Positions 15,534-47,605 of a stretch of 64,000 nucleotides of DNA are shown piece by piece. Position 1 is the stretch's first letter, and the number at the start of each line of letters is the position of its first letter. A program made the position numbers and the translations under genes. Source of the DNA: Prescottella equi (GTDB lineage Bacteria > Actinomycetota > Actinomycetes > Mycobacteriales > Mycobacteriaceae); the NCBI RefSeq assembly GCF_020171745.1, contig NZ_JAIVAH010000029.1, positions 62,001-126,000 of the forward strand, given 5' to 3'. The notes beneath the pieces were generated by a model, which saw only the letters and a list, made by a program, of their open reading frames with translations, searched no databases and was not told the DNA's origin.

Positions 15534-16334
15534 CTATTTCACCCCGTGGAACCGGGCCATCATCTTCTCGGTGAAGGCGCGCGGCGCGAGCCGCCGGACC
15601 GTGAACACCAGCGGCGCCTTGTTTCCCGTTGCGTACAGCGGCCTGGGCTTGTCCGCCTCGATGGCCTTCACCACGAGGTCGGCGACCGTCGACGCCTGGA
15701 TCCCGCGATCCTCGTTGCGCTGCATCGCCTTCGACACCGTCGTGTAGTCGGCGGTGTACGGGGAGCCGTCGCCGATGTACCGGGTGCGGCGGTCGCCGAT
15801 GCCGGTCGCGATGGTGCCGGGCTCGACGGTGGTGAGCCACACCCCGAACGGGCTCAGTTCCCGTCGGGCCGCCGACGCGAAGCCCTTCAGCGCGCACTTC
15901 GCGGCCACGTACGACGACCGGAACGCGAGCGGGAAGCTCGCGAGCATCGAGCCCACCATCACGACCCGGCCGTAGCCGCCCTCGCGCATGCCGGGCAACA
16001 CCAGCTGCGTCAGCTGGATCGCGCCCAGCACGTTCACCTGGAACAGGCGGTCGATCGCGTCGAGTGGCAACTCCTCGAGCGGACCCATCTGGCTCTCACC
16101 GGCGTTGTTGACGAGGACGTCCACGGCGCCGGCTGCCCGGGCGCACGCCTCGATGCTCGCCCGGTCGGTGAGATCCAACGCCAGGTACTCGACGCCGGGC
16201 ACCCGCGAACTCTGCTGCAGCGCATCCAGATTACGGGTGGTGCCGAGCACTCGATACCCGCGCGTCACCAGCGCCCGGGCCACCTCGAGGCCGATGCCCG
16301 ACGACGCGCCCGTCACGAGCGCGGTGCGGCTCAC
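15534..16334 (-). CDS. Classical short-chain dehydrogenase/reductase
   Basis: The 266-residue Rossmann enzyme has the NAD(P) site VTGASSGIG at residues 7-15, the NNAGE motif, the Ser of VGSMLAS and the catalytic YVAAK pair. A basic residue (TTRN) after the second strand suggests NADPH. Its GTG start overlaps the stop of the FAD-dehydrogenase gene (GTGA junction at 16331-16334), so it is translated as the last gene of a TetR/FAD-dehydrogenase/SDR operon. This pairing suggests the two enzymes act on the same ketone/alcohol. The substrate cannot be assigned, although steroid-like or lipid alcohols are common for such pairs. Confidence 0.85.
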   Translation of the reverse strand: MSRTALVTGASSGIGLEVARALVTRGYRVLGTTRNLDALQQSSRVPGVEYLALDLTDRASIEACARAAGAVDVLVNNAGESQMGPLEELPLDAIDRLFQVNVLGAIQLTQLVLPGMREGGYGRVVMVGSMLASFPLAFRSSYVAAKCALKGFASAARRELSPFGVWLTTVEPGTIATGIGDRRTRYIGDGSPYTADYTTVSKAMQRNEDRGIQASTVADLVVKAIEADKPRPLYATGNKAPLVFTVRRLAPRAFTEKMMARFHGVK

Positions 16335-33894: not shown

Positions 33895-34479
33895 TCAGGA
33901 CCGGGCCTCGATGCCTTCCAGGAAGACGGACACCACCGAGTCGGCCAGCTGGTCCATGCCGAACTCGGCGGTGGGCGAGAACCAGCGCAACGACAACCAG
34001 ACGGCGTCGCGGATGAGGCCGTACAGCACCTCGGCCGGCAGATCCGAGCGGAACTCGCCCGACGCGATGCCGGATTCGATCACCGCCATCCAGGCGTCCT
34101 TCGTGGTTCGCGCGGCGTCGCGAATCTTACGGTGCGACTTGAGTTTGCGCAGATAGGTGCCGTTGTTCTGGTAGATCTCCGACGCGTGGGGATGCGCCTG
34201 ACTGACCCGGAACGACGCCTTGACGAGGTCGTCGAGGCGCCCCCGTGGATCGCTCGACGATTCGAGGATCGCCTTGTACTCGTCGACGAGGGCGTCGAGA
34301 TACTGGGTGACGATCAGTTCGGCTATCGCGTCCTTGGACGGGAAGTAGTGGTACAGACTGCCGGAGAGGATGCCCACGCCGTCGGCGATGTCGCGCACCT
34401 TGGTGCCGGCGATGCCCTTGGTGGCGAACAGGGTGGCGGCCTGCTCCATGATCAAGGTGTGGCGCTCGGACCACTCCAT
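33895..34479 (-). CDS. KstR2-like TetR regulator of the adjacent catabolic cluster
   Basis: The 194-residue protein has a TetR_N domain with KVRDIADGVGILSGSLYHYF as recognition region (about residues 27-46). From memory of the family, this is very close to the VRDIADG-GILSGSLYH segment of KstR2, the repressor of steroid C/D-ring catabolism. The C-terminal SLRWFSP segment also recalls KstR2. The ATG at 34479 follows GGAGG. An 18-bp palindrome starts 67 bp upstream, and near-identical sites lie in the two other promoters of the cluster, so it is the obvious regulator, autoregulated. KstR2 binds a CoA thioester of a steroid fragment; an acyl-CoA ligand is likely here too. Confidence 0.88.
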   Translation of the reverse strand: MEWSERHTLIMEQAATLFATKGIAGTKVRDIADGVGILSGSLYHYFPSKDAIAELIVTQYLDALVDEYKAILESSSDPRGRLDDLVKASFRVSQAHPHASEIYQNNGTYLRKLKSHRKIRDAARTTKDAWMAVIESGIASGEFRSDLPAEVLYGLIRDAVWLSLRWFSPTAEFGMDQLADSVVSVFLEGIEARS

Positions 34480-34545
34480 GTCTACCTCCGAAATCGAAAC
34501 AGCCCGGCGACCCGGGCAGTCGTGTTGTCCATGTCGACTCTATCG

Positions 34546-34563
34546 GCAGCAAACATTTGCTAC
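34546..34563. promoter_or_regulatory. Cluster operator site 1 (KstR2-like box)
   Basis: GCAGCAAACATTTGCTAC contains the perfect 14-bp palindrome AGCAAA-CA-TTTGCT. It lies upstream of the KstR2-like gene and matches sites 2 and 3 at 16 of 18 positions or better. Confidence 0.82.
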
Positions 34564-34584
34564 CCGTGCGCGGGTCTGCCTCGG

Positions 34585-35478
34585 TCAGGCACCGGGGTTG
34601 CCGAACTGGCCGTTGACGACCTTGGTGGGCGCGATGTCCAGGTCGGCCAGGAAGGCGCGCGTCGCGGCGGCGAGGCGCGCCACGCGGGCGTCCGGGTTGC
34701 CGCGCTCGGCGGTGAACACCTCGACACTCAGCACCAGGTCCGGCGAGGTCGCGCGCAGGCGGCGCACCATCTCCCCGACGGCCGCGGTGCCCTCCCCGGG
34801 CACCAGCCGACCCGTCATCGGTACGTAGGTCTCGGTGGCGGGCGGCGGACGCCAGCCGCTGATCTGCACCTCGATCACCCGCGCGGCCGCGGCCGCGGTC
34901 ACCTCGTCGGGTGTGCCGCCCGAGCGGATGTGGTGCCACGTGTCGAACAGAATCCCCACCGACGGCGAGTCCACGCTCTCGACCACCCGCAGTGCCGTGT
35001 CCAGGTCCGGGAGACCGGTGCCCGGGATGAACTCCAGGCCGATGCGGACGTTGCTCTTCCTTGCCGGCGCACCCAGTTCGTCTGCTGCCGTTGCCATGTC
35101 GTCGACAGCCACGTCGGTTCGGCCGAGGAAGTGCGCTACGTTGAGGGTGCGGGCTCCCAGTTCGACGGCTGCCTCCAGGCACTCCTCCGCGCTCCGTGAG
35201 TAACTCTCTCGCAGCGGTGCCGGTACCCGGGCGGGGTCCGGTGCGCCCGGCAGGTAGCCCATCAGCGCGTCGACGACGCCGATGCGAACGCCGGTGGCCT
35301 CCAGCTTCCGTCGCCAGTCGGGGTCGGCCCGTGCGCGGAAGAACTGGCCGGGTTGTACCGCGATCTCGGGGAATCCGTGGCGTGCTGCGGCTTCCGCAAG
35401 CCCGATCAGGTCGAGCTCGGGAACACACCCCCAGGAGAGGGCCGTTCCGGTCAGCGTGCCGCACCGTTCGTATGTCAT
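34585..35478 (-). CDS. Xylose-isomerase-like TIM-barrel protein 1
   Basis: The 297-residue protein of the AP_endonuc_2 / sugar-phosphate isomerase superfamily has strands GFPEIAVQPG, GVRIGVVDALM, GARTLNVAHFLG, RIGLEFIPGTG, SVGILFDTWHHIRSGG and VLSVEVFTAE. The Glu of LEF, the Asp-x2-His of DTWHH and the Glu of SVEVF are placed like the divalent-metal ligands of the fold. Members are isomerases, epimerases, dehydratases or hydrolases, so the reaction is open. It is 37 bp behind the kinase gene on the same strand, forming a two-gene operon from operator site 2. A second divergent TIM-barrel gene (36703) is in the same regulon. Confidence 0.8.
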   Translation of the reverse strand: MTYERCGTLTGTALSWGCVPELDLIGLAEAAARHGFPEIAVQPGQFFRARADPDWRRKLEATGVRIGVVDALMGYLPGAPDPARVPAPLRESYSRSAEECLEAAVELGARTLNVAHFLGRTDVAVDDMATAADELGAPARKSNVRIGLEFIPGTGLPDLDTALRVVESVDSPSVGILFDTWHHIRSGGTPDEVTAAAAARVIEVQISGWRPPPATETYVPMTGRLVPGEGTAAVGEMVRRLRATSPDLVLSVEVFTAERGNPDARVARLAAATRAFLADLDIAPTKVVNGQFGNPGA

Positions 35479-35515
35479 GAATGCTCCGTGGTTTCAGGAC
35501 GGATCGGAGGTCTGA

Positions 35516-36553
35516 TCAGAGGCGGCTCGCGTACCGCCAGGCCTGGGCCGCGAGCCGCTGGGCCTGGGCGCCGAAGGATTCCGGTGTGCGGTCGCTCGCG
35601 CCCATCGCACCGCGCAGCGTGCGGGTGTAGACACCCTCGACGATGCACGCGATCTTCCACCAGTTGTAGGCGATGTAGAAGTCGATGTCGGGCACCGTGT
35701 CCGGCCGTACCGCGGCGAGGTACTGCTCCACCAGGTCGTCGCGCGTGGGAAACCCCGGCACGCGGGTGGGCGGGTTCTCGAGCGCGCACACCTCGTCGTC
35801 GGGCTGCGCCCAGTACGCGAGCAGCTGGCCGAGGTCGGCGAGCGGGTCGCCGACGGTGGTGAGTTCCCAGTCGAGGATCCCGCCGATCGTGCCGTCGGGT
35901 GCGAACAAGCAGTTGTCGAGCCGGAAGTCGCCGTGGACGATCCGCGCGGAGCCCTGCCGCGGCAGGCGTTCGAGCAGTCGGTCGTGGGTGCGGCCGATGT
36001 CGTCGAGGACACGGACGCGATCCTGGGCCCAGTTCGTGGACCAGCGCCGCAGCTGCCGGGCGAGGTAGTCGTCCCGGTCGGCGAGGCCACCCCAACCGAC
36101 ATCGCGCGGATCGACGGCGTGCAGGGCGGCCAGAGCGCGCACCAGTTCGGCGGCGACGGCCGGGCGGCGCTCGACGGGCACCGTGGCCGTCACGGTATCG
36201 GGATCGCGGAGCACGACGCCGTCGATGTGGTTCATGACGAAGAACGGTGCGCCTGTGACGGCGTCGTCGTCACAGGCGCCGACGACCACCGGTGTCGGCA
36301 CCGGGCTGCTGCGCAGGCGATCGAGCACCTCGGCTTCGCGGAGCACGTCGTGGGCGCGCGAGTGCGCCATTCCCAGCGGCGGCCGTCGCAGGACCCACCG
36401 GGCGTCGTCTGCGCCCTGTACCAGGTAGGTCAGGTTGGACCGGCCGCCGGCGATGCGCTCGAAACGGAGCGGTCCCGTCGCGTCGTCGACGTGGTCGGTG
36501 AACCACCGGGAGAGCGCGTCGTCGCGGATCCCGGTGTCGGTGGTGCTGGTCAT
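35516..36553 (-). CDS. ACAD10/11-type acyl-CoA (hydroxyacyl) kinase, APH fold
   Basis: The 345-residue aminoglycoside-phosphotransferase-fold protein carries the nucleotide loop ERIAGGRSNLTY and VLRRPPLG. The catalytic loop is HGDFRLDN (His207, Asp209), followed by ILDWELTTVGDPLADLG and CIVEGVYTRTLRG. These segments match the N-terminal kinase half of mammalian ACAD10/ACAD11 and the LvaA type, which phosphorylate 4-hydroxyacyl-CoA before loss of phosphate. They do not look like true drug-resistance kinases. The partner dehydrogenase half is a separate gene at 43109. The ATG at 36553 follows GGAAAGG. A longer frame from 36640 would begin inside operator site 2 and is rejected. Confidence 0.87.
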   Translation of the reverse strand: MTSTTDTGIRDDALSRWFTDHVDDATGPLRFERIAGGRSNLTYLVQGADDARWVLRRPPLGMAHSRAHDVLREAEVLDRLRSSPVPTPVVVGACDDDAVTGAPFFVMNHIDGVVLRDPDTVTATVPVERRPAVAAELVRALAALHAVDPRDVGWGGLADRDDYLARQLRRWSTNWAQDRVRVLDDIGRTHDRLLERLPRQGSARIVHGDFRLDNCLFAPDGTIGGILDWELTTVGDPLADLGQLLAYWAQPDDEVCALENPPTRVPGFPTRDDLVEQYLAAVRPDTVPDIDFYIAYNWWKIACIVEGVYTRTLRGAMGASDRTPESFGAQAQRLAAQAWRYASRL

Positions 36554-36629
36554 CGGCTGCCTTTCCGGTAGGGGCAGGGCCGGCGCTCGGCGTGTGCGAA
36601 TCGCCGGTACGAGATGGAGACTATACGGC

Positions 36630-36647
36630 GCATCAAACATTTGCTAC
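36630..36647. promoter_or_regulatory. Cluster operator site 2 in divergent promoter
   Basis: GCATCAAACATTTGCTAC matches site 3 (reverse complement) at 17 of 18 bases. It sits between the divergent kinase/TIM-barrel-1 operon and the TIM-barrel-2 gene, 55 bp and 77 bp from the two starts. Confidence 0.82.
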
Positions 36648-36702
36648 ATTCCGTTTGCACCACGATCTCGGCATCGTCACCTGCACTGCGACAGGAGGAT
36701 TC

Positions 36703-37527
36703 GTGCAACACTCTCACTCGAACACGGCTGTGGACCGCCGGTCCGCCCTCAGCGTCTGCCTGGCGGCCACGGCCGAGCGTCCGCTCGGGGAATCGCTGGC
36801 GATGCTGCACCGCATCGGCGCGGACCGCTTCGGGCTGTTGGCGGCGACGATGTCGAGTCAGGGCTGGGACGAGTCGGTCGAGCTGATCCGGTCGTCCGGG
36901 CTACGGCCCGAGTTCATCGCCGGCGGTTGTCGCGCGATGCACGACGGCGACGGATGGGGGCGCGTGCTGTCCTCGCTCGCGCGGGCGATCGACGCCGCGG
37001 GAAAGATCGGTGCCCCCACCGTGTGTTTCACCTCGGGCGGTTCCGGCCGCCTCACCTGGGAGGAGGCCGCGGACGCGGCGGTGGACCGGTTCGGTCCACT
37101 GGTCGGATACGCGCAGGAACGGGGCGTTGGTCTCGCGCTGGAGAACACGATGTCGATCCGGTCGGCGATGAGCTTCACCCACAGTGTCTCGGATATCGCC
37201 GAACTGGGACGGCGGCTGGGCGTCGGGCTCATGGTGGACCTGTGTTCGGCCTGGCAGGAGCGGGGTCTGATGCAAACGATCGGTGACAACCTGGACGCCA
37301 TTCGGATCTTCCAGATCGGGGATCGCCACGTGGACGCGACGTCGGTGCCGAGCCGTCGGGTGCCGGGGGAAGGCAGCATTCCCCTCGATCGGATGGTGTC
37401 CGAGGTGGGCGCGCTCGGCTACGCCGGGCTGGTCGATCTCGAACTGCTCGGTCCGGCGATCGACGCGGAGGGAGCCGAGGGCGCAATGGCTCGAGGACTG
37501 GAGTGGATGCGGAAGTACGTGCCGTGA
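36703..37527 (+). CDS. Xylose-isomerase-like TIM-barrel protein 2
   Basis: The 274-residue AP_endonuc_2-type TIM barrel has RFGLLAATMS, GLRPEFIAGG, GAPTVCFTSGGSGR, GVGLALENTMS, GVGLMVDLCSAW, RIFQIGDRHVD and GLVDLELLGP. The putative metal ligands are Glu (ALEN), Asp (MVDLC), His (GDRHVD) and Glu (DLELLG). GDRHVD followed by a VPGEG loop is typical of inosose isomerase/dehydratase-like relatives. The GTG at 36703 has AGGAGG upstream. It differs clearly from TIM-barrel 1, so the two probably catalyse different steps or form a heteromer. It heads the plus-strand side of the cluster. Confidence 0.8.
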   Translation: MQHSHSNTAVDRRSALSVCLAATAERPLGESLAMLHRIGADRFGLLAATMSSQGWDESVELIRSSGLRPEFIAGGCRAMHDGDGWGRVLSSLARAIDAAGKIGAPTVCFTSGGSGRLTWEEAADAAVDRFGPLVGYAQERGVGLALENTMSIRSAMSFTHSVSDIAELGRRLGVGLMVDLCSAWQERGLMQTIGDNLDAIRIFQIGDRHVDATSVPSRRVPGEGSIPLDRMVSEVGALGYAGLVDLELLGPAIDAEGAEGAMARGLEWMRKYVP

Positions 37528-37541
37528 TCCTGCGGCGATAT

Positions 37542-37559
37542 GTAGCAAATGTTTGATAC
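37542..37559. promoter_or_regulatory. Cluster operator site 3 upstream of the ipdA-like operon
   Basis: GTAGCAAATGTTTGATAC is near-palindromic (arms GTAKCAAA / TTTGMTAC). It lies 58 bp before the chosen start of the IpdA-like gene. An ATG falls inside it, which creates a false upstream start. Confidence 0.82.
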
Positions 37560-37617
37560 GCGCGGACCCGAAGGGACGAAGTCGCGCGGTCGGGACGCAG
37601 ACGAAGGATGGATCGAA

Positions 37618-38481
37618 TTGTCGGACAAGAGGATGACGGAGAAAGAGGTGGTCAGCCGGCTGCGGTCCGGTATGACCATCGGTATCGGCGGGTGGGGATC
37701 GCGGCGCAAGCCCATGTCGCTCGTGCGCGAGATCCTGCGCTCGGACATCGACGATCTCACCGTCGTCTCGTACGGCGGACCGGACGTGGGTCTGCTGTGC
37801 GCGGCGGGCAAGGTGCGCAAGGTGATCTTCGGGTTCGTGTCGTTGGACTCGATCCCGCTGGACCCGCACTTCCGCGCCGCGCGACAGGGCGGACGCATCG
37901 AGGTCGCCGAGTACGACGAGGGCATGCTGCAGTGGGGCCTGTACGCCGCCGGAATCAGGCTGCCGTACCTGCCGACGCGGGCGGGGCTCGGATCGGACGT
38001 CATGCGTGTCAACCCCGAATTGCGCACGGTCACAGACCCCTACGGCGACGAGACCCTCGTCGCGATGCCGGCGATCCCGCTCGACGCGGCGCTGGTGCAC
38101 ATGAACCGAGCCGACGTGCACGGCAACGCGCAATACCTGGGCCCGGACCTGTACTTCGACGACCTGTTCTGCATGGCGGCCGAGCAGGTGTACGTCTCGT
38201 GCGAACGCATCGTGCCGACCGCCGAACTCACCGCCGACGCGCATCCGTCGACGATCCGGATCCCCCGCCTGCTGGTGTCCGGCGTGGTGGCCGCGCCCGG
38301 CGGCGCGCACTTCACGTCGTGTGTGCCGGACTACGACCGCGACGAGGCGTTCCAGCGGGAGTACGTCACGGCGGCCAAGGACCCGGAGAAGTGGCAGGCG
38401 TTCGTGGACCGCTACCTGGCGGTCCCGGAGGCGGAGTACCAGCGCGCGGTGCGCGGCGAGCGTGAGGAGGCTTCGGCATGA
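37618..38481 (+). CDS. IpdA-like CoA-transferase-fold hydrolase, alpha subunit
   Basis: The 287-residue protein of the class I CoA-transferase fold matches IpdA of the steroid C/D-ring pathway closely: RLRSGMTIGIGGWGSRRKPM, YGGPDVGLLCAAGKV, GFVSLDS, RAGLGSDV and VAAPGGAHFTS. IpdAB is a ring-opening hydrolase rather than a CoA transferase. The acidic DEGML motif (Glu101), where the family catalytic glutamate appears to lie, is kept. I chose the TTG at 37618 (GAAGG about 10 bases upstream) because an ATG at 37549 is inside operator site 3. An ATG at 37633 is a further alternative. First gene of a run of ten same-strand genes. Confidence 0.85.
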   Translation: MSDKRMTEKEVVSRLRSGMTIGIGGWGSRRKPMSLVREILRSDIDDLTVVSYGGPDVGLLCAAGKVRKVIFGFVSLDSIPLDPHFRAARQGGRIEVAEYDEGMLQWGLYAAGIRLPYLPTRAGLGSDVMRVNPELRTVTDPYGDETLVAMPAIPLDAALVHMNRADVHGNAQYLGPDLYFDDLFCMAAEQVYVSCERIVPTAELTADAHPSTIRIPRLLVSGVVAAPGGAHFTSCVPDYDRDEAFQREYVTAAKDPEKWQAFVDRYLAVPEAEYQRAVRGEREEASA

Positions 38482-39236
38482 GTGCAGCGACGCGGGCGGA
38501 AGTGTGTGCGGTGGCGTGCGCCGAGGCGTACCGCGGTAACGGCGAGGTGATCGCCAGTGCGTTCGGGACCATCCCGGCGATCGGCGTCCGGTTGGCACGG
38601 CACACGTTCGAACCCGACCTGGTGGTGTCGGACGGCGAGGCCGCCGCGGTGCGCGGGACGTGGGCGGTCGGAGGCCCCGCCGACGGCGAGGTCGAGGCGT
38701 GGCTGCCCTTCAACCAGATCTTCGATCTGGTGTGGAACGGCAAGCGCCACATCATGATGATCCCGACCCAGCTCGACACGTACGGCAACTGCAACATCTC
38801 CGCGATCGGGGACCACGAGCGGCCGAGCGTGCAGCTGCTCGGTGTCCGCGGTGCGCCGGGCAACACCGTCTACCACCCGACCAGCTACTGGGTGCCCAAG
38901 CACAGCACCCGGGTGTTCGTGCCCAAGGTCGACATGGTGTCCGGCGTCGGCAACGACAACGCGCGCAAGGCGGGTCCGGCGGCCACCCGGTACCACGAAT
39001 TGCGCCGTGTCGTCACGGATCTGGCGGTCCTCGACTTCACGCCGGACACCGGGCGGCTGCGCCTGGTCTCCGTGCATCCGGGGGTCACCGTCGACGACGT
39101 CGTCGCGGCCACCGGGTTCGAGCTGGTGATCCCGGACTCGGTGTCGCAGACCCGCACCCCGAGCGCGGAGGAACTGAACCTGATCCGCACCGTCATCGAC
39201 CCCCGCAACCTGCGCGACAAGGAGGTTCCCGCGTGA
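38478..39236 (+). CDS. IpdB-like CoA-transferase-fold hydrolase, beta subunit
   Basis: This 252-residue partner of the IpdA-like subunit begins SAATRAEVCAVACAEAYRGNG and contains VSDGEAAAV, NQIFDLVWNGKRHIMM, YGNCNISAIGD, RGAPGNTVYHPTSYWVPKHS and SVHPGVTVDDV. All of these are matched in order by IpdB as I recall it. Its ATG overlaps the ipdA-like stop (ATGA), as expected for subunits made in equal amounts. With the alpha subunit it should hydrolyse a carbon-carbon bond of a cyclic 1,3-dicarbonyl-type CoA ester. The true substrate is unknown. Confidence 0.85.
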   Translation: MSAATRAEVCAVACAEAYRGNGEVIASAFGTIPAIGVRLARHTFEPDLVVSDGEAAAVRGTWAVGGPADGEVEAWLPFNQIFDLVWNGKRHIMMIPTQLDTYGNCNISAIGDHERPSVQLLGVRGAPGNTVYHPTSYWVPKHSTRVFVPKVDMVSGVGNDNARKAGPAATRYHELRRVVTDLAVLDFTPDTGRLRLVSVHPGVTVDDVVAATGFELVIPDSVSQTRTPSAEELNLIRTVIDPRNLRDKEVPA

Positions 39237-40321
39237 CCACCGTCGAATCGAACCGCAACGCGCTGCACACCCGGGTGTGCGACCTGTTCGGCGTGAAGTA
39301 CCCGATCGTGCAGACCGGCATGGGCTACGTCTCCGACGCCAAGCTCACCGCGGCCACGGCCGCGGCGGGTGGCCTCGGGATCATCGCCGGCGGCATGCTG
39401 AGCTACGACGAACTCGAGCAGGCGATCCACTACGTCAAGGACCGGACCGACGCCCCGTTCGGCGTCAACCTGCGCGCCAATCAGGAGGACATCGACAAGC
39501 GACTCGATCTGCTGATCCGATCCGGGGTCAAGGTGGCGTCGTTCGCGCTGGCCCCCAAGCGGGACCTGATCGCGAAGCTCAAGGACGCCGGCCTCGTGGT
39601 GGTGCCGTCGATCGGTGCGCGCCGGCACGCGGAGAAGGTCGCCGAATGGGGCGTCGACGCCGTCGTCGTGCAGGGCGGCGAGGGCGGCGGCCACACCGGC
39701 GCCGTCCCGACCAGCCTGCTGCTGCCGCAGGTGGTCGACGCGGTGGACATCCCGGTGATCGCCGCGGGCGGCTACTTCGACGGCCGCGGCCTGGTCTCGG
39801 CCCTCGCATACGGTGCCGACGGCATCGCGATGGGCACCCGGTTCATGCTGACCAGCGATTCCCCGGTGGCCCAGGCGGTCAAGGACGTCTACCTGTCGAA
39901 GTCGGTGAACGACACCGTCGTGACGCTCGAGATCGACGGGGTTCCGCAGCGGGTACTGCGGGCCGGCACGATCGACCAGCTCGAGTCCACCCGCGGACCA
40001 CAGCGCGTGCTGCGCGCGGTGCGCAATGCGGTTGCGTTCCAGCGGTTGTCGGGCACCCCGTGGAAGGACATGATCCGCGAGGGCCTCGAGATGAAGAAGA
40101 GTCACGAACTCGGCTGGCGGCAGGTCGTCATGGCCGCGAACGCGCCGATGCTGTACCGCTCCGCGCTGGTCGACGGAAACGCCGACATCGGCGTGATGGC
40201 CACCGGTCAGGTGGTGGGGCTGATCGACGACGTCCCGAGCTGTGCCGAGCTGATCGACCGGATCGTGCACGAGGCGGAGTCCGTTCTGGACCGACTCGGC
40301 GGGGCCAACGAGCGCGTTTAG
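39233..40321 (+). CDS. IpdC-like flavin oxidoreductase (nitronate-monooxygenase/enoyl-reductase family)
   Basis: The 362-residue FMN TIM barrel of the 2-nitropropane dioxygenase superfamily has PIVQTGMGYVSDAKLTAAT, GGLGIIAGG, VVVQGGEGGGHTG, IPVIAAGGYFDGRG and GADGIAMGTRFMLT. The C-terminal WRQVVMAANAPMLYR, then DDVPSCAELI, are characteristic of IpdC. In steroid breakdown IpdC handles the hydrindane CoA ester just before ring hydrolysis. The GTG start overlaps the ipdB-like stop (GTGA), so the three form a tightly coupled unit. It was not read as a nitronate monooxygenase because of this context. Confidence 0.84.
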   Translation: MTTVESNRNALHTRVCDLFGVKYPIVQTGMGYVSDAKLTAATAAAGGLGIIAGGMLSYDELEQAIHYVKDRTDAPFGVNLRANQEDIDKRLDLLIRSGVKVASFALAPKRDLIAKLKDAGLVVVPSIGARRHAEKVAEWGVDAVVVQGGEGGGHTGAVPTSLLLPQVVDAVDIPVIAAGGYFDGRGLVSALAYGADGIAMGTRFMLTSDSPVAQAVKDVYLSKSVNDTVVTLEIDGVPQRVLRAGTIDQLESTRGPQRVLRAVRNAVAFQRLSGTPWKDMIREGLEMKKSHELGWRQVVMAANAPMLYRSALVDGNADIGVMATGQVVGLIDDVPSCAELIDRIVHEAESVLDRLGGANERV

Positions 40322-40359
40322 CCCACAACCGAACTCACACTTCTACGAGGAGACATCAG

Positions 40360-41235
40360 ATGAACCAGCTGAAGGATCGAGTGATCGTGGTGACCGGCGC
40401 CGGTCGCGGTATCGGGCGTGAGCACGCGCTGCTGGCCGCTGCCGAGGGCGCCCGGGTGGTCGTCAACGACACCGGCGCCGGACCCGACGGCAAGGGTTCG
40501 GATCCGGCGCTCGCGCAGCAGGTCGCGGACGAGATCACCGCGGCGGGCGGCGCCGCGGTCGCGAACACCGCGGACATCACCACGATCGAGGGCGCACAGA
40601 GCCTGCTCGACACCGCGCTCGGCAGTTTCGGCGAGGTGCACGGGCTGGTGAACAACGCCGGCATCCTGCGAGATCGCATGTTCGTCAACATGAGTGAGGA
40701 CGAGTGGGACGACGTCATCACCGGACAGCTGCGTGCGACGTTCGCCCCGTGCCGCGTCTTCGGCGCACACTGGCGCGACCGCTCGAAGGCGGGTGACGCG
40801 GTCGCGGCGTCGATCGTGAACGTCTCGAGCACGTCCGGGCTGCTCGGCGCCGTCGGGCAGAGTAATTACGGCGCGGCCAAGGCCGGAATCGCGTCGCTCA
40901 CGGTGATTCTGGCGCAGGAACTGGACCGTTACGGGGTGCGCGCCAACGCGATCACCCCCGTGGCCCGCACCCGGATGACCGAGAACGTACCCGGCATCAA
41001 GGACATGGTCGCGAAGCCCGCCGACCCGAACGAGTTCGACGTCTACCACCCCGGGAACGTCTCGCCCGTCGTCGCCTACCTCCTCACCGAGCAGTGCCCG
41101 GCCAACGGATCGGTGTTCTACGCCAAGGGCGGCGAGATCCGGCAGTTCCTCGGCTGGCAGTACGGGAAGGTCCTCGACAAGGGCGCCCGTTGGACCGTCG
41201 ACGAGCTGGTGCAGGAGATGAGCGGGCTCGTCTGA
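40360..41235 (+). CDS. SDR, MFE-2/17beta-HSD4-like 3-hydroxyacyl-CoA dehydrogenase
   Basis: The 291-residue short-chain dehydrogenase has VVTGAGRGIGREHAL, VVVNDTGAGPDGKG, LVNNAGILRD, NVSSTSGLLG and the catalytic YGAAK. The NDTGAGPDG-type insert after the second strand is typical of the dehydrogenase unit of peroxisomal multifunctional enzyme 2. This points to (R)-3-hydroxyacyl-CoA oxidation, consistent with the MaoC hydratase pair just downstream. The C-terminus is extended (FLGWQYGKVLDKGARWTVDEL). It starts 38 bp after the ipdC-like gene with GAGGAG upstream. Confidence 0.85.
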   Translation: MNQLKDRVIVVTGAGRGIGREHALLAAAEGARVVVNDTGAGPDGKGSDPALAQQVADEITAAGGAAVANTADITTIEGAQSLLDTALGSFGEVHGLVNNAGILRDRMFVNMSEDEWDDVITGQLRATFAPCRVFGAHWRDRSKAGDAVAASIVNVSSTSGLLGAVGQSNYGAAKAGIASLTVILAQELDRYGVRANAITPVARTRMTENVPGIKDMVAKPADPNEFDVYHPGNVSPVVAYLLTEQCPANGSVFYAKGGEIRQFLGWQYGKVLDKGARWTVDELVQEMSGLV

Positions 41236-41274
41236 GCCCGCGCCCCTCGACCGAACCACATTCCTGGAGAGAAC

Positions 41275-41721
41275 ATGGCAAACGCAGACGCTGTCGGAGT
41301 CGAGGGCGTGCCGTTCGACCTCGACGTCGAGCGGGGCAAGGTCCGCGAATTCGCGAAGGCGACGCACTCGACCAACCCCGACTATCTCGAGCGCGAGGAC
41401 GCGGTGTCCCCACCGACCTTCCTCACCACCACCCTGCACTGGCAGCCACCCGAGGGAAACCCCTGGAAGGCTGTGGAACTCGACGGCAAGCGTGGCTTGC
41501 ACGCCGAGCAGCAGTACGAGTTCTTCGGCCCGCCGCCGAAGGCCGGCACGCGTCTGCGCTGCACCTCCCGGATCACCGACGTCTACACCAAGCAGGGCCG
41601 GCGCGGTGGGGAGATGACGTTCGCGGTGATGGTCACCGACTTCGTCGACCCCACAGGCACACTTGTGGCCCGCGCGACCATGACCGGTGTCGAGACCGCC
41701 CGACCCGCGACGGAGGCATGA
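41275..41721 (+). CDS. MaoC/FAS1-like dehydratase subunit A (HadA-like)
   Basis: The 148-residue hotdog-fold protein of the N-terminal MaoC (FAS1_DH) type has FDLDVERGKVREFAKATHSTN, VSPPTFLTTTLHW, EQQYEFFGPPPKAG and EMTFAVMVTDF. This half usually lacks the catalytic Asp/His and serves as the structural partner of a second MaoC subunit, as in HadA/HadB. Its stop overlaps the next start, supporting a heterodimer that hydrates an enoyl-CoA to the (R)-3-hydroxy form. Confidence 0.82.
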   Translation: MANADAVGVEGVPFDLDVERGKVREFAKATHSTNPDYLEREDAVSPPTFLTTTLHWQPPEGNPWKAVELDGKRGLHAEQQYEFFGPPPKAGTRLRCTSRITDVYTKQGRRGGEMTFAVMVTDFVDPTGTLVARATMTGVETARPATEA

Positions 41722-42128
41722 TGACCGCGACCCTGACCGTTCCCGAGCCCTGGACCGTCGGACCGGTGACCCGCACCGACTTCGTCCGCTACCAGGGCGC
41801 GTCCGGGGACATGAACCCCATCCACCACGACCAGACCTACGCGGAGGCGGCCGGCTACAAGAGCCCGTTCTCGGTCGGGATGTTCCAGGCCGGGCTGCTG
41901 GCCACCTACGCCACCGACTGGCTCGGCGCCGAGAACGTCCGCTCGTTCCGGGTGCGGTTCCTCGAGCAGGTGTGGCCCGACGATGTGCTCACCTGCACCG
42001 CGCAGGTGTTGCGCGAGTACGAGGAGGACGGAGTGTCCAAGGTCGACCTCGAGCTCGATTGTGCCCGTCAGACCGGCGGACTCGCGGTCAAGGCGTGGGC
42101 GACGTTCGTGACGGGGGGCGCGGCGTGA
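41721..42128 (+). CDS. MaoC-family (R)-specific enoyl-CoA hydratase subunit B
   Basis: The 135-residue hotdog-fold subunit has the hydratase-2 motif YQGASGDMNPIHHD, which supplies the catalytic Asp and His. GYKSPFSVGMFQAGLLATY and RFLEQVWPDDVLTC follow. It would be the catalytic half of the pair with the upstream gene. The ATG at 41721 gives better spacing to CGGAGG than the ATG at 41718, and both overlap the preceding stop. Its own stop overlaps the next gene (GTGA), so the whole block is translationally coupled. Confidence 0.86.
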   Translation: MTATLTVPEPWTVGPVTRTDFVRYQGASGDMNPIHHDQTYAEAAGYKSPFSVGMFQAGLLATYATDWLGAENVRSFRVRFLEQVWPDDVLTCTAQVLREYEEDGVSKVDLELDCARQTGGLAVKAWATFVTGGAA

Positions 42129-43105
42129 AGGTGCAACTGTGCGAGGTGCTCGGCGAGCCGGAGGTGTTGCAGTACAGGGACATCGCCGACCCCGAACCCG
42201 GTCACGGCGAGGTCCTCGTCGAGGTGCACGCGGCCGGCGTCAACTTCCCCGACGGCCTCGTCGTCTCAGGGAACTACCAGACCAAGCCGGAACTGCCGTT
42301 CGTGCCGGGCTCCGAGGTCGCCGGCGTCGTCCGGGCCGTCGGAGCGAACGTCGACGGTGTCGCTGTCGGCGACCGGGTGCTGGCGTTCTGCGGGATGGGC
42401 GGCTACGCGGAACTGGTGACGGTGCCCGCGACGATGGTGTTCCCGATCCCGGACTCGATGTCGTACGTCGACGCCGCGGGCTTCGTGGTGACCTACGGGA
42501 CGTCGTACCACGGCCTGGTCGACCGGGCCGACCTCGCGGCCGGGGAGACGCTGCTGGTGCTGGGCGCGTCCGGTGGTGTCGGTCTGACCGCCGTCGAGAT
42601 CGGAAAGGCGTTGGGCGCCCGCGTGATCGCGGCGGCCTCCACCGCCGACAAGCTGGCGCTGTGCCGCGAGCACGGTGCCGACGAGCTGATCGACTACTCC
42701 GCCGACGACCTGAAGGCGCGACTGGCCGAGGTGGCACCGGGCGGCGTCGACGTCGTGTACGACCCGGTCGGTGGCGACCATGCGCAGACCGCGATCCGCG
42801 CATTGGCTTGGGGCGGACGGTATCTCACCGTCGGATACGCCTCCGGTGACATCCCCAGGGTAGGGATGAACCGACTGCTGGTCAGTGGCGGCGCTCTGCA
42901 CGGCGTGCTGTGGGGGGCGTGGGCCAAGCGCAACCCGGAGCGCAACGCCGCGAACATGCGTCGGCTGTTCGACTGGTACGACCGCGGCGCGCTGCGTCCG
43001 CACGTCAGCGAGACGTACCCGCTGGCGGAGGCATCCGCGGCGTTGGACGTGGTGATGGGGCGACGCGCGCGCGGCAAGGTCATTCTCACGAGCTGGAGGA
43101 ACTGA
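42125..43105 (+). CDS. NADPH:quinone-oxidoreductase-like MDR (enoyl reductase type)
   Basis: The 326-residue medium-chain reductase has GVNFPDGLVVSGNYQTKPELPFVPGSE across the substrate face. A nucleotide site reading LVLGASGGVGLTAVEIGKA follows. The structural-zinc cysteine lobe is absent, so it is the zinc-free QOR/enoyl-reductase group. Such enzymes reduce an activated double bond with NADPH. In this operon the substrate could be an enoyl-CoA or enone, but none can be named. The GTG overlaps the MaoC stop. Confidence 0.84.
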   Translation: MKVQLCEVLGEPEVLQYRDIADPEPGHGEVLVEVHAAGVNFPDGLVVSGNYQTKPELPFVPGSEVAGVVRAVGANVDGVAVGDRVLAFCGMGGYAELVTVPATMVFPIPDSMSYVDAAGFVVTYGTSYHGLVDRADLAAGETLLVLGASGGVGLTAVEIGKALGARVIAAASTADKLALCREHGADELIDYSADDLKARLAEVAPGGVDVVYDPVGGDHAQTAIRALAWGGRYLTVGYASGDIPRVGMNRLLVSGGALHGVLWGAWAKRNPERNAANMRRLFDWYDRGALRPHVSETYPLAEASAALDVVMGRRARGKVILTSWRN

Positions 43106-43108
43106 CGG

Positions 43109-44308
43109 ATGGATCTGTCGCCGAGCCCGGAAGCCCGGGACATCATCGAGCGCCTCGAGGCGTTCATGGACGACTACGTGTACCCGGCCGAGCCGGTCTA
43201 CGCCGAGCAACTCGAGGCGTCCGGACCACGCAGCCACGAGCTGCCGCCCGTCGTCGAGGACCTCAAGGTCGAGGCCCGCCGACAGGGCATGTGGAACCTC
43301 TTCCTGCCCGCGCTGTCCGGACTGACGCACCTGGACTACGCGCACATCGCGGAGGTGACCGGCCGGTCGCCGTACATCGCGCCGGAGGCCCTCAACTGCT
43401 CCGCGCCGTCGACCGGCAACATGGAGATCCTGCACATGTTCGGCACTCCCGAGCAGAAGGAGCGGTGGCTCGAACCGCTGCTCGACGGCCGCATCCGGTC
43501 GGGCTTCTCGATGACCGAACCGGACGTCGCGTCGTCGGACGCCCGCAACATCTCGACGTCGATCGTGCGCGACGGCGACGAGTACGTGATCAACGGTCGC
43601 AAGTGGTGGACCACCGGCGCCGCGGATCCGCGCTGCGAGATCCTCGTCGTGATGGGCAAGACCGACCCGGACGCCGCACCACATCGCCAGCAGTCGATGA
43701 TCCTCGTCCCGGTCGCGACGCCCGGCGTCGAGATCGTCCGCTCGCTGCCGATCTTCGGGTACCACGACCAGCAGGGGCACGCCGAGATCCAGTTCACCGA
43801 CGTGCGGGTGCCGGTCACCAACATGCTCGCCGGCGAGGGCGAGGGTTTCGCGATCGCCCAGGCCCGCCTCGGTCCCGGCCGCATCCATCACGCGATGCGC
43901 TGCATCGGTATGGCCGAGCGCGGACTGGAACTGATGGTGCGGCGCACGATGGCACGCAATGCCTTCGGTGGTCCGATCTCCGACCAGGGCGTGGTCCGGA
44001 CCTGGATCGCCGAGTCGCGCATGGAGATCGAGCAGGCGCGCCTGCTGGTGCTCAAGACCGCCTGGATGATCGACCGGGTGGGCGCCAAGGGCGCGCAGAT
44101 CGAGATCGCCGCGGTGAAGGTGATCGGACCGCGAGTCGCCAGATCCGTGCTGAACCGGGCGATCCAGTGTCACGGCGGCGGCGGCGTGACCGACGACTTC
44201 CCGATCGCGCGCATGTGGGCCAGCGCGCGCATCCTCGGCATCGCCGACGGTCCGGACGAGGTGCACATCCGGAGCGTCGCGCGGCAGGAGCTGCGGAAGT
44301 ACAGGTGA
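43109..44308 (+). CDS. ACAD11-like acyl-CoA dehydrogenase
   Basis: The 399-residue protein follows the dehydrogenase half of mammalian ACAD11 almost segment by segment: MWNLFLPALSGLTHLDYAHIA, FSMTEPDVASSDA, YVINGRKWWTTGA, RLGPGRIHHAMRC, AFGGPISDQGVV, WIAESRMEIEQARLLVLK and GIADGPDEVH. The usual catalytic Glu of fatty-acyl dehydrogenases corresponds to the ADGPDEVH region. This subgroup, like LvaC, removes phosphate from 4-phosphoacyl-CoA rather than simply desaturating a chain. The matching kinase is the separate gene at 35516. Three bp separate it from the MDR gene. Confidence 0.88.
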   Translation: MDLSPSPEARDIIERLEAFMDDYVYPAEPVYAEQLEASGPRSHELPPVVEDLKVEARRQGMWNLFLPALSGLTHLDYAHIAEVTGRSPYIAPEALNCSAPSTGNMEILHMFGTPEQKERWLEPLLDGRIRSGFSMTEPDVASSDARNISTSIVRDGDEYVINGRKWWTTGAADPRCEILVVMGKTDPDAAPHRQQSMILVPVATPGVEIVRSLPIFGYHDQQGHAEIQFTDVRVPVTNMLAGEGEGFAIAQARLGPGRIHHAMRCIGMAERGLELMVRRTMARNAFGGPISDQGVVRTWIAESRMEIEQARLLVLKTAWMIDRVGAKGAQIEIAAVKVIGPRVARSVLNRAIQCHGGGGVTDDFPIARMWASARILGIADGPDEVHIRSVARQELRKYR

Positions 44309-44403
44309 GCACGGGCAGTCCGACAGAAGTACCGACGAAGGTGTGAGTGCAGAAAAGTGTGACCGTCCGTATGGGTTGATCGAGGCTTCTCAGGAGGATG
44401 TCG

Positions 44404-45975
44404 ATGACAGGCAGATGGATTCGTGGCTTGCAGAGTTGCGCCGTGTTCGCGGCGGCAACAGTGGTGCTCGCGGGGTGTGGCGGCGGTGCGTCGTCGTCAC
44501 CGGCCGCGAGCGCTTCCGCCGAACTCGACCCCACCGCGGTTCTACGGGTGACGTCGAGCAATCCCACCCGAAACCTGGACCCGTATCTCCAGACGAGTTA
44601 CGGCGGATGGGGTTACCTCACAATGATCTTCGATCGGCTCACCGTGGTGGACGGTGACGGAAACCTGCAGCCGGGACTCGCGGAGTCGTGGGAGTTCGCG
44701 CCCGACGGTTCGTATCTCGAGATGAAGCTCCGCGACGACGTCACCTTCCACGACGGTGCCAAGTTCGACGCCGAGGCCGTGGCCGCGAACATTCGGCGCG
44801 GCCAGACCATGGAAGGCAGCACGGTCGCGGGTACGTTCAAGAACATCGAGGGTGTCGACGTCGTCGGCGAGTACACCGTGCGGCTGCGCCTGCGTCCAGG
44901 GACCGGGGTGGAGCTGCCGGGCGTGTTCACGGGGAACGCGGGAATGATGATCAGCCCCCAAGCGATCGAATCCGGTGCGGATCTGCGCAACAACCCGGGT
45001 AAGGCGGGTTCCGGTGCGTATCTCGTGACCGCGTACGTCCCCGAGGAGTCGGTCTCCATGGTGCGGGCCGAGGATCCCAACTGGGATCCGGAGGCCGGGA
45101 AGCTGGCCGGAATCGAGTTCACGTGGATTCCCGATGCGAGCACCCGCCTCAACGGTCTGAAGACAGGGGCGACCGATCTCAGTTGGGTGAGTTCGGCGAA
45201 CGAGATCGTCGAAGCGCAGTCGCTGGCGAAGAGCGGAGCACTTGCCGTCTCCGAGGACAAGTTTCGCAGCATCATCGGTCTGTTCATGCGGGCTCAGGGC
45301 GACCTGGCCGATCCGCAAGTGCGGCAGGCGGTGGCCACGGCGATCGACCCCGAGGCCGTCAGCGCTCTGTTCTCGGGAACCTGTACCCCCTACCGTCAGC
45401 TGTATCCCGCGGGAAGCTGGCCGGCCGACGCGTCGTACGAGTACCCGTACGAGTTCGATCTGGACAAGGCGAAGAGCCTCGTGCAGGCGGCGGGTGGTGC
45501 GAAGGTCACGCTGACGTTCGCCGCGGGAACCAACACCGAGAAGCCCGCCAACGTCATCCAGTCGGCGCTGTCGAAGGCAGGAATCGATGCCGAGCTGAAC
45601 CCGCTGCCGAACACGCAGAACGAGCCCCGCTACGTCGCAGGAGATTTCGAGTCGATGGTCTCGGGGAGCATGAACCCGCGCGTCGATCCCGCCGAAACCG
45701 TCAACGCCTACGTGCTCGGCGCCTACGACATCGGCAACGGAAACCCGCAGATCGAGGCTCTCGCGACCAAGGCCGCCGCTCCGACGCTGTCGGAGGAGGA
45801 ACGGGCGGACCTGTATCACCAGATCTGGAATCTGACGCTGCAGGAAGCGCTGTACGTCCCGATCTGCAACCCGTCGATCGCCACCGTCTCGACCGGGAAG
45901 GTCACTGGCGTGGAGGACATGCCGTGGGCCAATCTCGGGATCTTCGACCTTCGTCACGTGGGCATGACGAGGTAG
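44404..45975 (+). CDS. Family 5 extracellular solute-binding lipoprotein (orphan)
   Basis: The 523-residue SBP_bac_5 protein (dipeptide/oligopeptide/nickel-binding type) has a lipobox (L22-A-G-C25), so Cys25 is lipidated and the protein sits on the outer face of the membrane. LAESWEFAPDGSYLEMKLRD and VTFHDGAKFDAEAVAANI are hallmarks of the family. The ATG at 44404 is seven bases after AGGAGG; the ATG at 44398 is too close. No permease or ATPase gene is adjacent, so it must borrow another transporter or act as a receptor. It lies 95 bp after the ACAD gene with no copy of the operator, and probably belongs to the same transcript. Confidence 0.85.
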   Translation: MTGRWIRGLQSCAVFAAATVVLAGCGGGASSSPAASASAELDPTAVLRVTSSNPTRNLDPYLQTSYGGWGYLTMIFDRLTVVDGDGNLQPGLAESWEFAPDGSYLEMKLRDDVTFHDGAKFDAEAVAANIRRGQTMEGSTVAGTFKNIEGVDVVGEYTVRLRLRPGTGVELPGVFTGNAGMMISPQAIESGADLRNNPGKAGSGAYLVTAYVPEESVSMVRAEDPNWDPEAGKLAGIEFTWIPDASTRLNGLKTGATDLSWVSSANEIVEAQSLAKSGALAVSEDKFRSIIGLFMRAQGDLADPQVRQAVATAIDPEAVSALFSGTCTPYRQLYPAGSWPADASYEYPYEFDLDKAKSLVQAAGGAKVTLTFAAGTNTEKPANVIQSALSKAGIDAELNPLPNTQNEPRYVAGDFESMVSGSMNPRVDPAETVNAYVLGAYDIGNGNPQIEALATKAAAPTLSEEERADLYHQIWNLTLQEALYVPICNPSIATVSTGKVTGVEDMPWANLGIFDLRHVGMTR

Positions 45976-45982
45976 CGGTGAC

Positions 45983-47605
45983 ATGACTGAACAGCACATC
46001 CGCCCAGGAGGTTTCGTCGAGGCTCCCGAGCACTACGCCGACATGCCGCTCAGCGACGTCGTCCGGTCCTGGGCCCGACAGATCCCCGACGGCCGGGCGT
46101 TCGTGACGCCGGCCCGGACCACGACGTGGCGCGAGTACGACCGGTTGGCCGACGCTGTGGCGCGCGAGCTTCGCGCGACGGCCGGTGGTCTCCGCTCCCG
46201 GGCGGCGCTGTTACTGCCCGACACGGCCGGCGTCCACGCTGCGCTGTGCGGCAGCTACCGCGCCGGCCGGGTGGCGGCGGCGATCGGTGTGCGGTCCGGG
46301 GTGCGGGAGATCGCACACATCATGCGGCGCACCGGCGCATCGGTTCTCGTCACCGCACCGGAGATCCGTGGGCGGTCGTGGACCGGGCTGGTCGAGGAGC
46401 TGCGTGAGCAGGGGGTGTTCCCGGCGGATGTCGTGGTGGTCGACGAGGGCAGCGGTGCCGTCGACCGGCATCGTCTCGGCGGAGTCGAGCACGGTGACAC
46501 GGCCGCGCCGGGCGCCCCGTTCACCACGTCCGAGGTGACGATCCTCAATTCGACGTCGGGGACGACGGGTCTGCCGAAGGTGGTGGCCCACGACGAGCGC
46601 AAGTGGGTCGCCTTCGCGCGGGAGGCGATGCGGGGCGGCCGGATCGGGCCGGGGGACGTCGTCTGTTCCGTTGTCCCGGCGCCGTTCGGTTTCGGGTTGT
46701 GGTCGGCGCACTTCCTGCCGACCCTGCTCGGCGTTCCGGTGGTGGTGACGGCGAAGTTCGACGTCGACGAGATGGCGATGATGATCGAACGCGAGCGGGT
46801 GCCCGTACTGTGCTGTGTCAGTACACAGTTCAGGATGCTACTGCGCTCGGATGCGGTCCGGCACCGGGATCTCTCGAGCCTGCGTGTCCTGTACACCGGC
46901 GGCGAACCGGTGCCCTACCGGGACGCCCGGGCGTTCGAGGAGCGCACCGGCGCCAAGGTGTTGCAGTTCTACGGCTCCAACGAGGCCGGGGTGGTGAGCC
47001 GTACGACCCTCGACGACGACGTCGAGACGCGGCTGCGTACGTGCGGTCACGTGCTCGAGTCGGCGAACGTTCGGGTACTCGACGACTCCGGCGCCGACTG
47101 TCGGGACCGGCCGCGCCGCGGTCGGCCCGCTGTCCGCGGGCCGCTGGTGTCCGCCGGGTACTGGGCGGATCCGGCGGCGAACACCGAGTTGTACACGGGC
47201 GACGGCTGGATGCTGCTCGGTGACGTCGTCGAGGTCGACGACGCGGGCCGTGTTCGAGTCGTCGGTCGCACAGCCGATTTCGTCATCCGCGGCGGCAAGA
47301 ACATCTCGATCGTCGAGATCGAGGAACTCGTCGGTGATCACCCGTCGGTGTCGGACGTGGCCGTCGTCGGGGTTCCCGACGACATCTTCGGCGAACGCGT
47401 CTGCGCGGTCGTCGTGCCCGTCGCCGGAGATCACCTGGACACCGAGACGCTCGCGCAGTGGCTACGCTCGCGGGGCGTCACCACCGAGTACCTGCCGGAG
47501 TACGTCGTTGCCGTGGATCGGCTCGATGTCGGTCCGGGCGGCAAGACCGATCGCCGGGCCGCGAAGGCGGTCGCGGTGGAGTTGCTCAGCCGTACAGTTC
47601 GGTGA
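45983..47605 (+). CDS. Acyl-CoA synthetase (AMP-forming ligase) of the cluster
   Basis: The 540-residue ANL-family ligase has the ATP loop NSTSGTTGLPKVV, QFYGSNEAGV, TGDGWMLLGDVVEV, the hinge VGRTADFVIRGGKNIS and the C-terminal GPGGKTDRRA with its catalytic Lys. It should activate the pathway acid as an acyl-CoA. Just before the GPLVSAGYW motif, the segment ADCRDRPRRGRPAVRG is much more basic than usual, where GEI-x-VRG is expected. This may be real divergence or two compensating indels. It starts eight bp after the SBP gene. Its last 20 bp overlap the end of the convergent fadD15-like gene. Confidence 0.85.
   Translation: MTEQHIRPGGFVEAPEHYADMPLSDVVRSWARQIPDGRAFVTPARTTTWREYDRLADAVARELRATAGGLRSRAALLLPDTAGVHAALCGSYRAGRVAAAIGVRSGVREIAHIMRRTGASVLVTAPEIRGRSWTGLVEELREQGVFPADVVVVDEGSGAVDRHRLGGVEHGDTAAPGAPFTTSEVTILNSTSGTTGLPKVVAHDERKWVAFAREAMRGGRIGPGDVVCSVVPAPFGFGLWSAHFLPTLLGVPVVVTAKFDVDEMAMMIERERVPVLCCVSTQFRMLLRSDAVRHRDLSSLRVLYTGGEPVPYRDARAFEERTGAKVLQFYGSNEAGVVSRTTLDDDVETRLRTCGHVLESANVRVLDDSGADCRDRPRRGRPAVRGPLVSAGYWADPAANTELYTGDGWMLLGDVVEVDDAGRVRVVGRTADFVIRGGKNISIVEIEELVGDHPSVSDVAVVGVPDDIFGERVCAVVVPVAGDHLDTETLAQWLRSRGVTTEYLPEYVVAVDRLDVGPGGKTDRRAAKAVAVELLSRTVR

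Follow-up and report, generated by a model that had tools for sequence, protein, structure and literature searches.

Two groups of described systems come close to the locus analysed here. The first is the combination of a kinase with an acyl-coenzyme A (acyl-CoA) dehydrogenase found in mammalian ACAD10/ACAD11 and in LvaA/LvaC of Pseudomonas putida levulinate catabolism. In ACAD11, disrupting the R626-R637 region ablates the elimination step, nonconservative changes at R626, H634 and R637 are the most disruptive, and D753 is the catalytic base (PMC12440821; papers given by PMC number are cited for the available portions of their text). The second is the KstR2 regulon of mycolic actinobacteria, for the steroid ring C/D intermediate methylhexahydroindanedione propionate (HIP), together with the paralogous pair IpdA2B2 of Rhodococcus equi (REQ_00850/REQ_00860), which is 55/51% identical to IpdA/IpdB and encoded outside the cholesterol cluster (PMC3161971). 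We analysed a window, meaning the whole of a 64,000-nucleotide stretch of Prescottella equi DNA (assembly GCF_020171745.1, contig NZ_JAIVAH010000029.1, positions 62,001 to 126,000), in which genes of both groups lie side by side at 33895-47605, from a tetR gene to an acyl-CoA ligase gene. We consider it probable that this cluster is one regulon for a cyclic carboxylic acid, in which phosphorylation-assisted removal of a gamma-hydroxyl is coupled to ring hydrolysis of the IpdAB type. This reading rests on sequence, namely gene content, catalytic residues, a shared operator and tight phylogenetic linkage; the individual steps, their substrate and their order we infer.

The initial annotation had proposed a split ACAD11-like kinase and dehydrogenase beside homologues of IpdABC, and structure matches, residues and gene positions confirm that the two proteins correspond to the two halves of ACAD11. 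When the dehydrogenase is aligned with ACAD11 (8v3u), equivalents of R626, R631, H634, R637 and D753 are all present, and the same five residues are kept in 20 of 20 related dehydrogenases of at least 75% identity; R631 is not specific to elimination, because it is conserved across the whole dehydrogenase family. The kinase matches ACAD11 (8v3v, E=6.1e-35), with 9o56 (2.6e-50) and 3dxp (4.8e-47) as closer structures. It keeps equivalents of the catalytic Asp220 and Asn225, its HGDFRLDN aligning with HGDFKLDN of 8v3v, and the strict motif recurs in 13 of 15 related kinases of at least 50% identity, the unmatched two being in L073 and L078 (L and G numbers are our designations for loci and genomes). 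The likeness of LvaA/LvaC to ACAD11 is a statement of the literature, our own sequence comparison having been made with ACAD11 only. Unlike ACAD11 and LvaA/LvaC, the window pair is encoded by separate genes on opposite strands and would belong to a ring-cleavage regulon. Two more pairs of a kinase and an ACAD11-type dehydrogenase occur in the same genome (L008:9192-11503 and L009:9169-11408); their dehydrogenases are 51% and 34% identical to that of the window, and the one in L008 has the HHCMR motif.

The kinase gene is divergent from the ipdABC operon, and co-regulation therefore needed testing. A palindrome, CAAACATTTGCTA, has three exact copies in the window, where shuffled sequences give 0.07 at up to two mismatches, and a whole-genome search at up to one mismatch returned exactly the same three copies, with none for the reversed control. 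Measured to the called starts, each copy is 69-79 bp upstream of its gene: tetR, the kinase gene (with a TIM barrel gene on the other side) and ipdA. Palindromes of this type are present in all ten of the loci L063-L072 (Prescottella, Speluncibacter, Nocardia and Rhodococcus); among the remaining 70 fetched loci, 2 have one. The kinase gene of Nocardia speluncae, about 9 kb from the ipd promoter, has a one-mismatch copy just upstream; for Nocardia vermiculata no such copy was found upstream of the kinase gene among the matches listed. The shared operator thus supports co-regulation of the three promoters and, at the level of sequence, the earlier proposal that the kinase/dehydrogenase pair and the IpdABC homologues belong to the same regulon.

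By structure matches, the regulator is nearest to KstR2 among named structures: its best PDB matches are 2ibd (4.9e-39) and KstR2 itself (4w97/4w1u, 1.5e-37/1.6e-37), the next following at 1.2e-17, and the TetR in kstR2 position in the HIP cluster of its own genome shares 36% identity with it across 187 residues. The published KstR2 box, AnCAAGnnCTTGnT (PMC3068626), has a frame into which the window operator fits. Operator copy 2 reads ATCAAACATTTGCT and the box of the own HIP cluster ACCAAGCACTTGCT, with 11 of 14 positions equal in our comparison. Having a KstR2-type TetR, the set therefore descends in part from the steroid HIP regulon.

The linkage between the kinase and the other genes was followed in relatives. 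Genome contigs were searched with IpdB, and the best 80 of 479 relatives were kept as loci; the module was defined as ipdABC, a short-chain dehydrogenase/reductase (SDR), the MaoC pair, a medium-chain dehydrogenase/reductase (MDR) and the dehydrogenase, and a module locus as one having the dehydrogenase at 70% identity or more. The module is found in 19 of the 80 loci. MDR, SDR and the first MaoC gene are each present in 19 of 19, the kinase lies within the flanks in 15, and the TIM barrel at 36730-37527 has a counterpart of at least 38% identity in 14. The corresponding counts among the other 61 loci are kinase 2, MDR 1, SDR 2, first MaoC gene 6 and TIM barrel 1, and in the lone MDR case (L075) the contig ends inside the dehydrogenase gene. 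When only loci of at least 20 kb are considered (n=52, including 35 of the 61), the kinase is present in 15 of 17 module loci versus 1 of 35 others, counts that are not corrected for relatedness. The gene set is conserved in both Rhodococcus and Nocardia, the genera for which the initial annotation had raised the matter, and module genera further include Prescottella, Speluncibacter, Nocardioides, Nakamurella, Micromonospora, Actinokineospora, Lentzea, Sphaerimonospora and Dactylosporangium.

At the genome level, of 17 module genomes searched, 16 have a kinase orthologue of at least 51% identity, whereas none of 40 control genomes does (best 45%); the controls were from the same order and hand-picked, not random, and 23 of the 40 were checked for the dehydrogenase (at most 69%). 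Among the 23 searched for both, 15 have a kinase match, and in ten of these (G067, G118, G144, G156, G160, G184, G191, G224, G238 and G255) it lies within 2 kb of a dehydrogenase-family match; the dehydrogenase family is therefore often paired with such kinases. This frequent pairing, the elimination-specific residues, the co-occurrence of kinase and module and the operator at the kinase promoter all speak against the alternative that an ordinary acyl-CoA dehydrogenase and a kinase with another target are neighbours by coincidence. That alternative draws on the abundance of APH-type proteins (11 matches in the own genome) and of this dehydrogenase type (29 of 30 genomes), and we regard it as highly improbable. 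Module parts lie on different contigs in G042 and G153. On plasmids, the kinase has a match on one Streptomyces plasmid (46%), and IpdB has matches on 32 (best 60.6%). In three relatives the dehydrogenase gene is followed, directly or one gene later, by a gene for an Old-Yellow-Enzyme-type flavin oxidoreductase (L066:15927-17159, L069:17488-18717 and L070:16764-17990; Pfam assignment on the L069 copy).

The IpdA and IpdB homologues, encoded by adjacent genes, match the two chains of 6co6, which we take to be R. jostii IpdAB, and IpdA keeps the Glu (YDEGM) that is Ala in 6coj, presumably the catalytic Glu of IpdA. A regular HIP cluster is present on another contig of the same genome (L005, L006), where we assume the gene names echA20, fadE30, fadD3 and ipdF from position, homology and the M. 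tuberculosis gene order. Identities between the window and this cluster are 56-57% for ipdA, 49-50% for ipdB, 59% for ipdC and 53% for the SDR (L005:3980-4894). When the L005/L006 products were compared with the window by tblastn, the echA20-position protein had no match and the fadE30-, fadD3- and ipdF-position products matched at 28-33% only. The window cluster resembles the HIP regulon in IpdABC, one SDR and the KstR2-like character of its TetR and operator frame. It differs in having no EchA20-like gene, no thiolase gene (Pfam scans of the cluster genes found neither thiolase nor crotonase domains) and no exact KstR2 box, the single one-mismatch site in the window, inside the SDR gene, being within chance (0.23 expected); and it adds the kinase, the ACAD11-type dehydrogenase, the MaoC pair, the MDR and the TIM barrels.

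The window ipdAB is most likely the same locus as R. equi ipdA2B2, because IpdB is 97% identical to a protein of Prescottella equi DSM 20307 and the published 55/51% agrees with the 56-57/49-50% found here, the match having been made from these identities. Deletion of ipdA2B2 leaves growth on androstenedione (AD) like wild type and hardly impairs growth on 5-OH-HIP, once a long lag has passed an ipdAB mutant grows on both via ipdA2B2, and the authors judge the primary role of the pair to be other than steroid catabolism (PMC3161971). The long lag would fit repression by a TetR of the window type. For Nocardioides simplex, PMC7807495 lists a second ipdAB that is regulated by KstR2 and induced by phytosterol. 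The initial annotation knew of no described pathway with this combination of genes, and no paper visibly joining the kinase/dehydrogenase pair with an IpdABC system was found among the literature matches listed; the ipdAB pair itself had already been described, as the paralogue ipdA2B2, in a paper whose available portion does not mention the kinase, dehydrogenase or operator.

These results bear on a second alternative, that the cluster is a spare or variant HIP operon whose IpdABC, SDR and TetR do their steroid work on a somewhat altered HIP-type compound while the kinase and dehydrogenase process side products. The paralogy of ipdABC (49-59%), SDR (53%) and TetR (36%) to the own HIP cluster and the growth supported by ipdA2B2 when ipdAB is missing would agree with it, whereas the near wild-type ipdA2B2 deletion, the missing KstR2 box, the missing thiolase and crotonase domains and the lack of a window counterpart for EchA20 would not. 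Steroid markers fall on both sides. Most carriers tested do have them: KshA_C is strong in 14 of 21 module genomes, and HsaC is at least 73% identical in P. equi, Nocardia vermiculata, Lentzea and G049, all with strong KshA_C. Against this, KshA_C has no match in six of the 21 (G042, G132, G306, G307, G310 and G317) and one of only 77 bits in a seventh, G108. In a search of 18 module genomes at 1e-30, which left out G317, HsaC was missing from all six of these seven that were tested and was present in the other 12, its best match being only 45% in G308 and 55% in G309. G306 is a 3.3 Mb metagenome-assembled genome and may be incomplete. The module is therefore not confined to classical aerobic steroid degraders. 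Overall we judge a variant HIP operon unlikely. The initial annotation had itself allowed for a scattered variant of the HIP locus, and half of this was found: ipdABC, SDR and TetR are HIP paralogues, yet the genome has a separate regular HIP cluster, the window has its own operator, and module genomes without KshA_C exist. The own genome (G000) has ten KshA_C matches, nine strong and one of 107 bits, on contigs C4, C5, C6, C7, C8, C9, C18, C28 and C32, which is many for one steroid pathway.

A further clue comes from the operator, which also immediately precedes genes for split transketolases in P. subtropica (L068:4441-6371), Speluncibacter (L152:7254-9219) and Rhodococcus sp. IEGM 1379 (L153:7517-9291, where the N-terminal part reads in two frames). 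In Speluncibacter some 4 kb separate these genes from a KshA homologue, and a thiamine diphosphate-dependent enzyme is encoded in between. The steroid-17,20-desmolase DesAB has a split transketolase architecture (PMC12876203), which other split transketolases share, and the closest solved structure to the proteins found here is a generic one, 6yak. The position of the operator motivates a reading in which the substrates of the regulon are 11-oxygenated corticosteroids, or HIP fragments bearing an 11-hydroxyl; by atom count this hydroxyl sits gamma to the HIC-CoA thioester, which would fit action of an ACAD11-type pair. Module genomes without KshA, which under this reading would feed on fragments left by others, count against it, as does the missing split transketolase pair in the own genome, and we hold a corticosteroid role to be doubtful, less probable still than a variant HIP operon. 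Split transketolases of at least 77% identity occur in 4 of 30 genomes, all with the module and one having supplied the query; the own genome, P. equi and most other module genomes gave no match at 1e-50. We therefore rejected the split transketolase as a general module part, its likeness to DesAB being one of architecture only.

Returning to phosphorylation-assisted hydroxyl removal coupled to ring hydrolysis, a route can be proposed in which the KstR2-like TetR would repress the three promoters and probably be released by a cyclic acyl-CoA. The ligase would form the CoA ester, the kinase would phosphorylate the gamma-carbon hydroxyl, and the ACAD11-type dehydrogenase, using flavin adenine dinucleotide, would expel phosphate to give a 2-enoyl-CoA. 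The MaoC pair would then hydrate this product and the SDR oxidise it to the beta-keto ester, after which IpdC would introduce a ring double bond and IpdAB open the ring by hydrolysis; growth via R. equi ipdA2B2 would indirectly support hydrolysis of a 6-oxocyclohexene-carboxyl-CoA ring by the pair. A hydroxy acid that is cyclic or forms a lactone would be a reasonable candidate substrate. Alternatively, the kinase and dehydrogenase may act after ring opening, on the gamma-keto diacid released by IpdAB (similar to 4-methyl-5-oxo-octanedioic acid, MOODA): the SDR would reduce it, and phosphorylation and dehydration would lead into beta-oxidation, as for levulinate. The resemblance to LvaA/LvaC and the presence of a ligase and an SDR would suit this order, which is possible but the less probable of the two versions, since the proposed HIP route treats MOODA-CoA from the other end and is kinase-free (PMC5380842). 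Fuller module loci, moreover, already carry extra dehydrogenases that might serve the open chain (one is related to IpdE2, at 125 bits against a cut-off of 450), and we therefore slightly favour action on the intact ring.

Several observations weigh against the coupled route. The window dehydrogenase reads HHAMR where ACAD11 reads HHCMR, and all 20 relatives likewise have HAMR instead of HCMR; the substitutions reported for this motif in the available text are of His and Arg, with none mentioned for Cys (PMC12440821). In four of the 19 module loci the kinase lies outside the flanks, though those four genomes carry a kinase elsewhere, and the kinase of G153 is only 44% identical. Kinase identity drops to 55-57% in Nocardia and Rhodococcus (L067, L070-L072), loci in which ipdB reaches 82-89%, so the kinase may have been replaced there by a related one. 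In a FastTree phylogeny of IpdA and IpdB, with 90 tips and the own genome's HIP copy as root, no clean clade of module IpdAB was found: the 21 module tips are mixed with non-module tips inside a group of 58 of the 90. On this tree close ipdAB relatives exist without the module; relative to ipdAB the module has been either gained or lost, and IpdAB type alone is no module marker. Among the 17 clustered loci, some cut by contig ends, six have an EchA20-like crotonase, five have further dehydrogenases and ten have a second SDR; in Nakamurella lactea the EchA20-like protein shares 67% identity with that of the HIP cluster, whose gene sits immediately before ipdA. The EchA20-like and extra dehydrogenase genes suggest a two-ring substrate in those loci, and the window set is without EchA20. 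Finally, the TIM barrel and the MDR have no explained role in the proposed route, and the sequence evidence points to no particular substrate.

All genes named in the initial annotation were found in place by gene calling and Pfam/NCBIfam scans, and the TetR regulator, two xylose-isomerase-like TIM barrels and a solute-binding protein were added to the set (Table 1). Of the TIM barrels, the accessory one has a 66% match in L064 and none in L063. The other was modelled by AlphaFold2 (predicted local distance difference test score 86), with sugar isomerases/epimerases as nearest folds (7vpf, SMc04130); although the model is confident, these matches are too general, and we assigned no reaction. 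The CoA ligase reached no NCBIfam cut-off among the 25 families shown of 84. A cyclohexanecarboxylate-CoA ligase assignment (TIGR03208, 211 bits against a cut-off of 792) was not used as evidence. A KstD-like gene at 16331-17992 (PRK12834, 995 bits) was rejected as a sign of a steroid island, the own KstD aligning in short pieces only. Elsewhere in the window, 8911-10659 and 10682-12424 encode neighbouring proteins of 582 and 580 amino acids with four and three Big_3_5 (bacterial Ig-like) stretches.

Table 1. Genes and operator copies of the cluster, in window coordinates. The Pfam scan of the kinase used the longer form, 35516-36640.
Feature	Position	Strand	Basis
TetR-family regulator, KstR2 type	33895-34479	-	PDB matches and HIP-cluster paralogy
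Operator copy 1, upstream of tetR, AGCAAACATTTGCTAC	34548-34563	+	Palindrome search
Accessory xylose-isomerase-like TIM barrel	34585-35478	-	Pfam AP_endonuc_2 1.9e-27; 37 bp downstream of kinase
APH-type kinase, ACAD11 N-half / LvaA type	35516-36553	-	APH 1.1e-45; alternative start 36640
Operator copy 2, kinase/TIM barrel divergent promoter, ATCAAACATTTGCTAC	36632-36647	+	Palindrome search
Xylose-isomerase-like TIM barrel	36730-37527	+	Pfam; AlphaFold2 model
Operator copy 3, upstream of ipdA	37542-37557	-	Palindrome search
IpdA homologue (R. equi IpdA2 counterpart)	37633-38481	+	6co6_A E=6.2e-102
IpdB homologue (R. equi IpdB2 counterpart)	38478-39236	+	6co6_B E=6.5e-79
IpdC homologue, FabK/NMO-type flavoenzyme	39233-40321	+	Pfam NMO 1.9e-80
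SDR, paralogue of SDR near ipdAB in HIP cluster	40360-41235	+	NCBIfam PRK07791 379.9 bits, cut-off 373
MaoC/HadA-like hydratase subunit	41275-41721	+	Pfam FAS1_DH_region 7.9e-21
MaoC/HadB-like hydratase subunit	41718-42128	+	Pfam MaoC_dehydratas 1.2e-16
MDR, quinone-oxidoreductase (PIG3-like) type	42125-43105	+	250 bits, under PIG3 cut-off 297
Acyl-CoA dehydrogenase, ACAD11 C-half / LvaC type	43109-44308	+	ACAD11 8v3u 1.3e-132
Solute-binding protein, SBP_bac_5	44398-45975	+	Pfam 1.8e-56
AMP-forming acyl-CoA ligase	45983-47605	+	Pfam 2.7e-58

Taken as a whole, the interpretation given in the initial annotation is partly supported. The cluster offers a concrete candidate role for R. equi ipdA2B2, and it predicts that the hydroxyl-removing chemistry of ACAD10/11, reported in 2024-2025, is used by bacteria inside a ring-degradation pathway. 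Some carriers of the module have no KshA match, and the module therefore points to a way of degrading a class of cyclic compound that we did not find assigned; the operator gives a direct handle for finding the inducer. This Rhodococcus relative probably carries one co-regulated set of genes that joins phosphorylation-driven dehydroxylation with hydrolytic ring opening, for the use of a ring-shaped acid.

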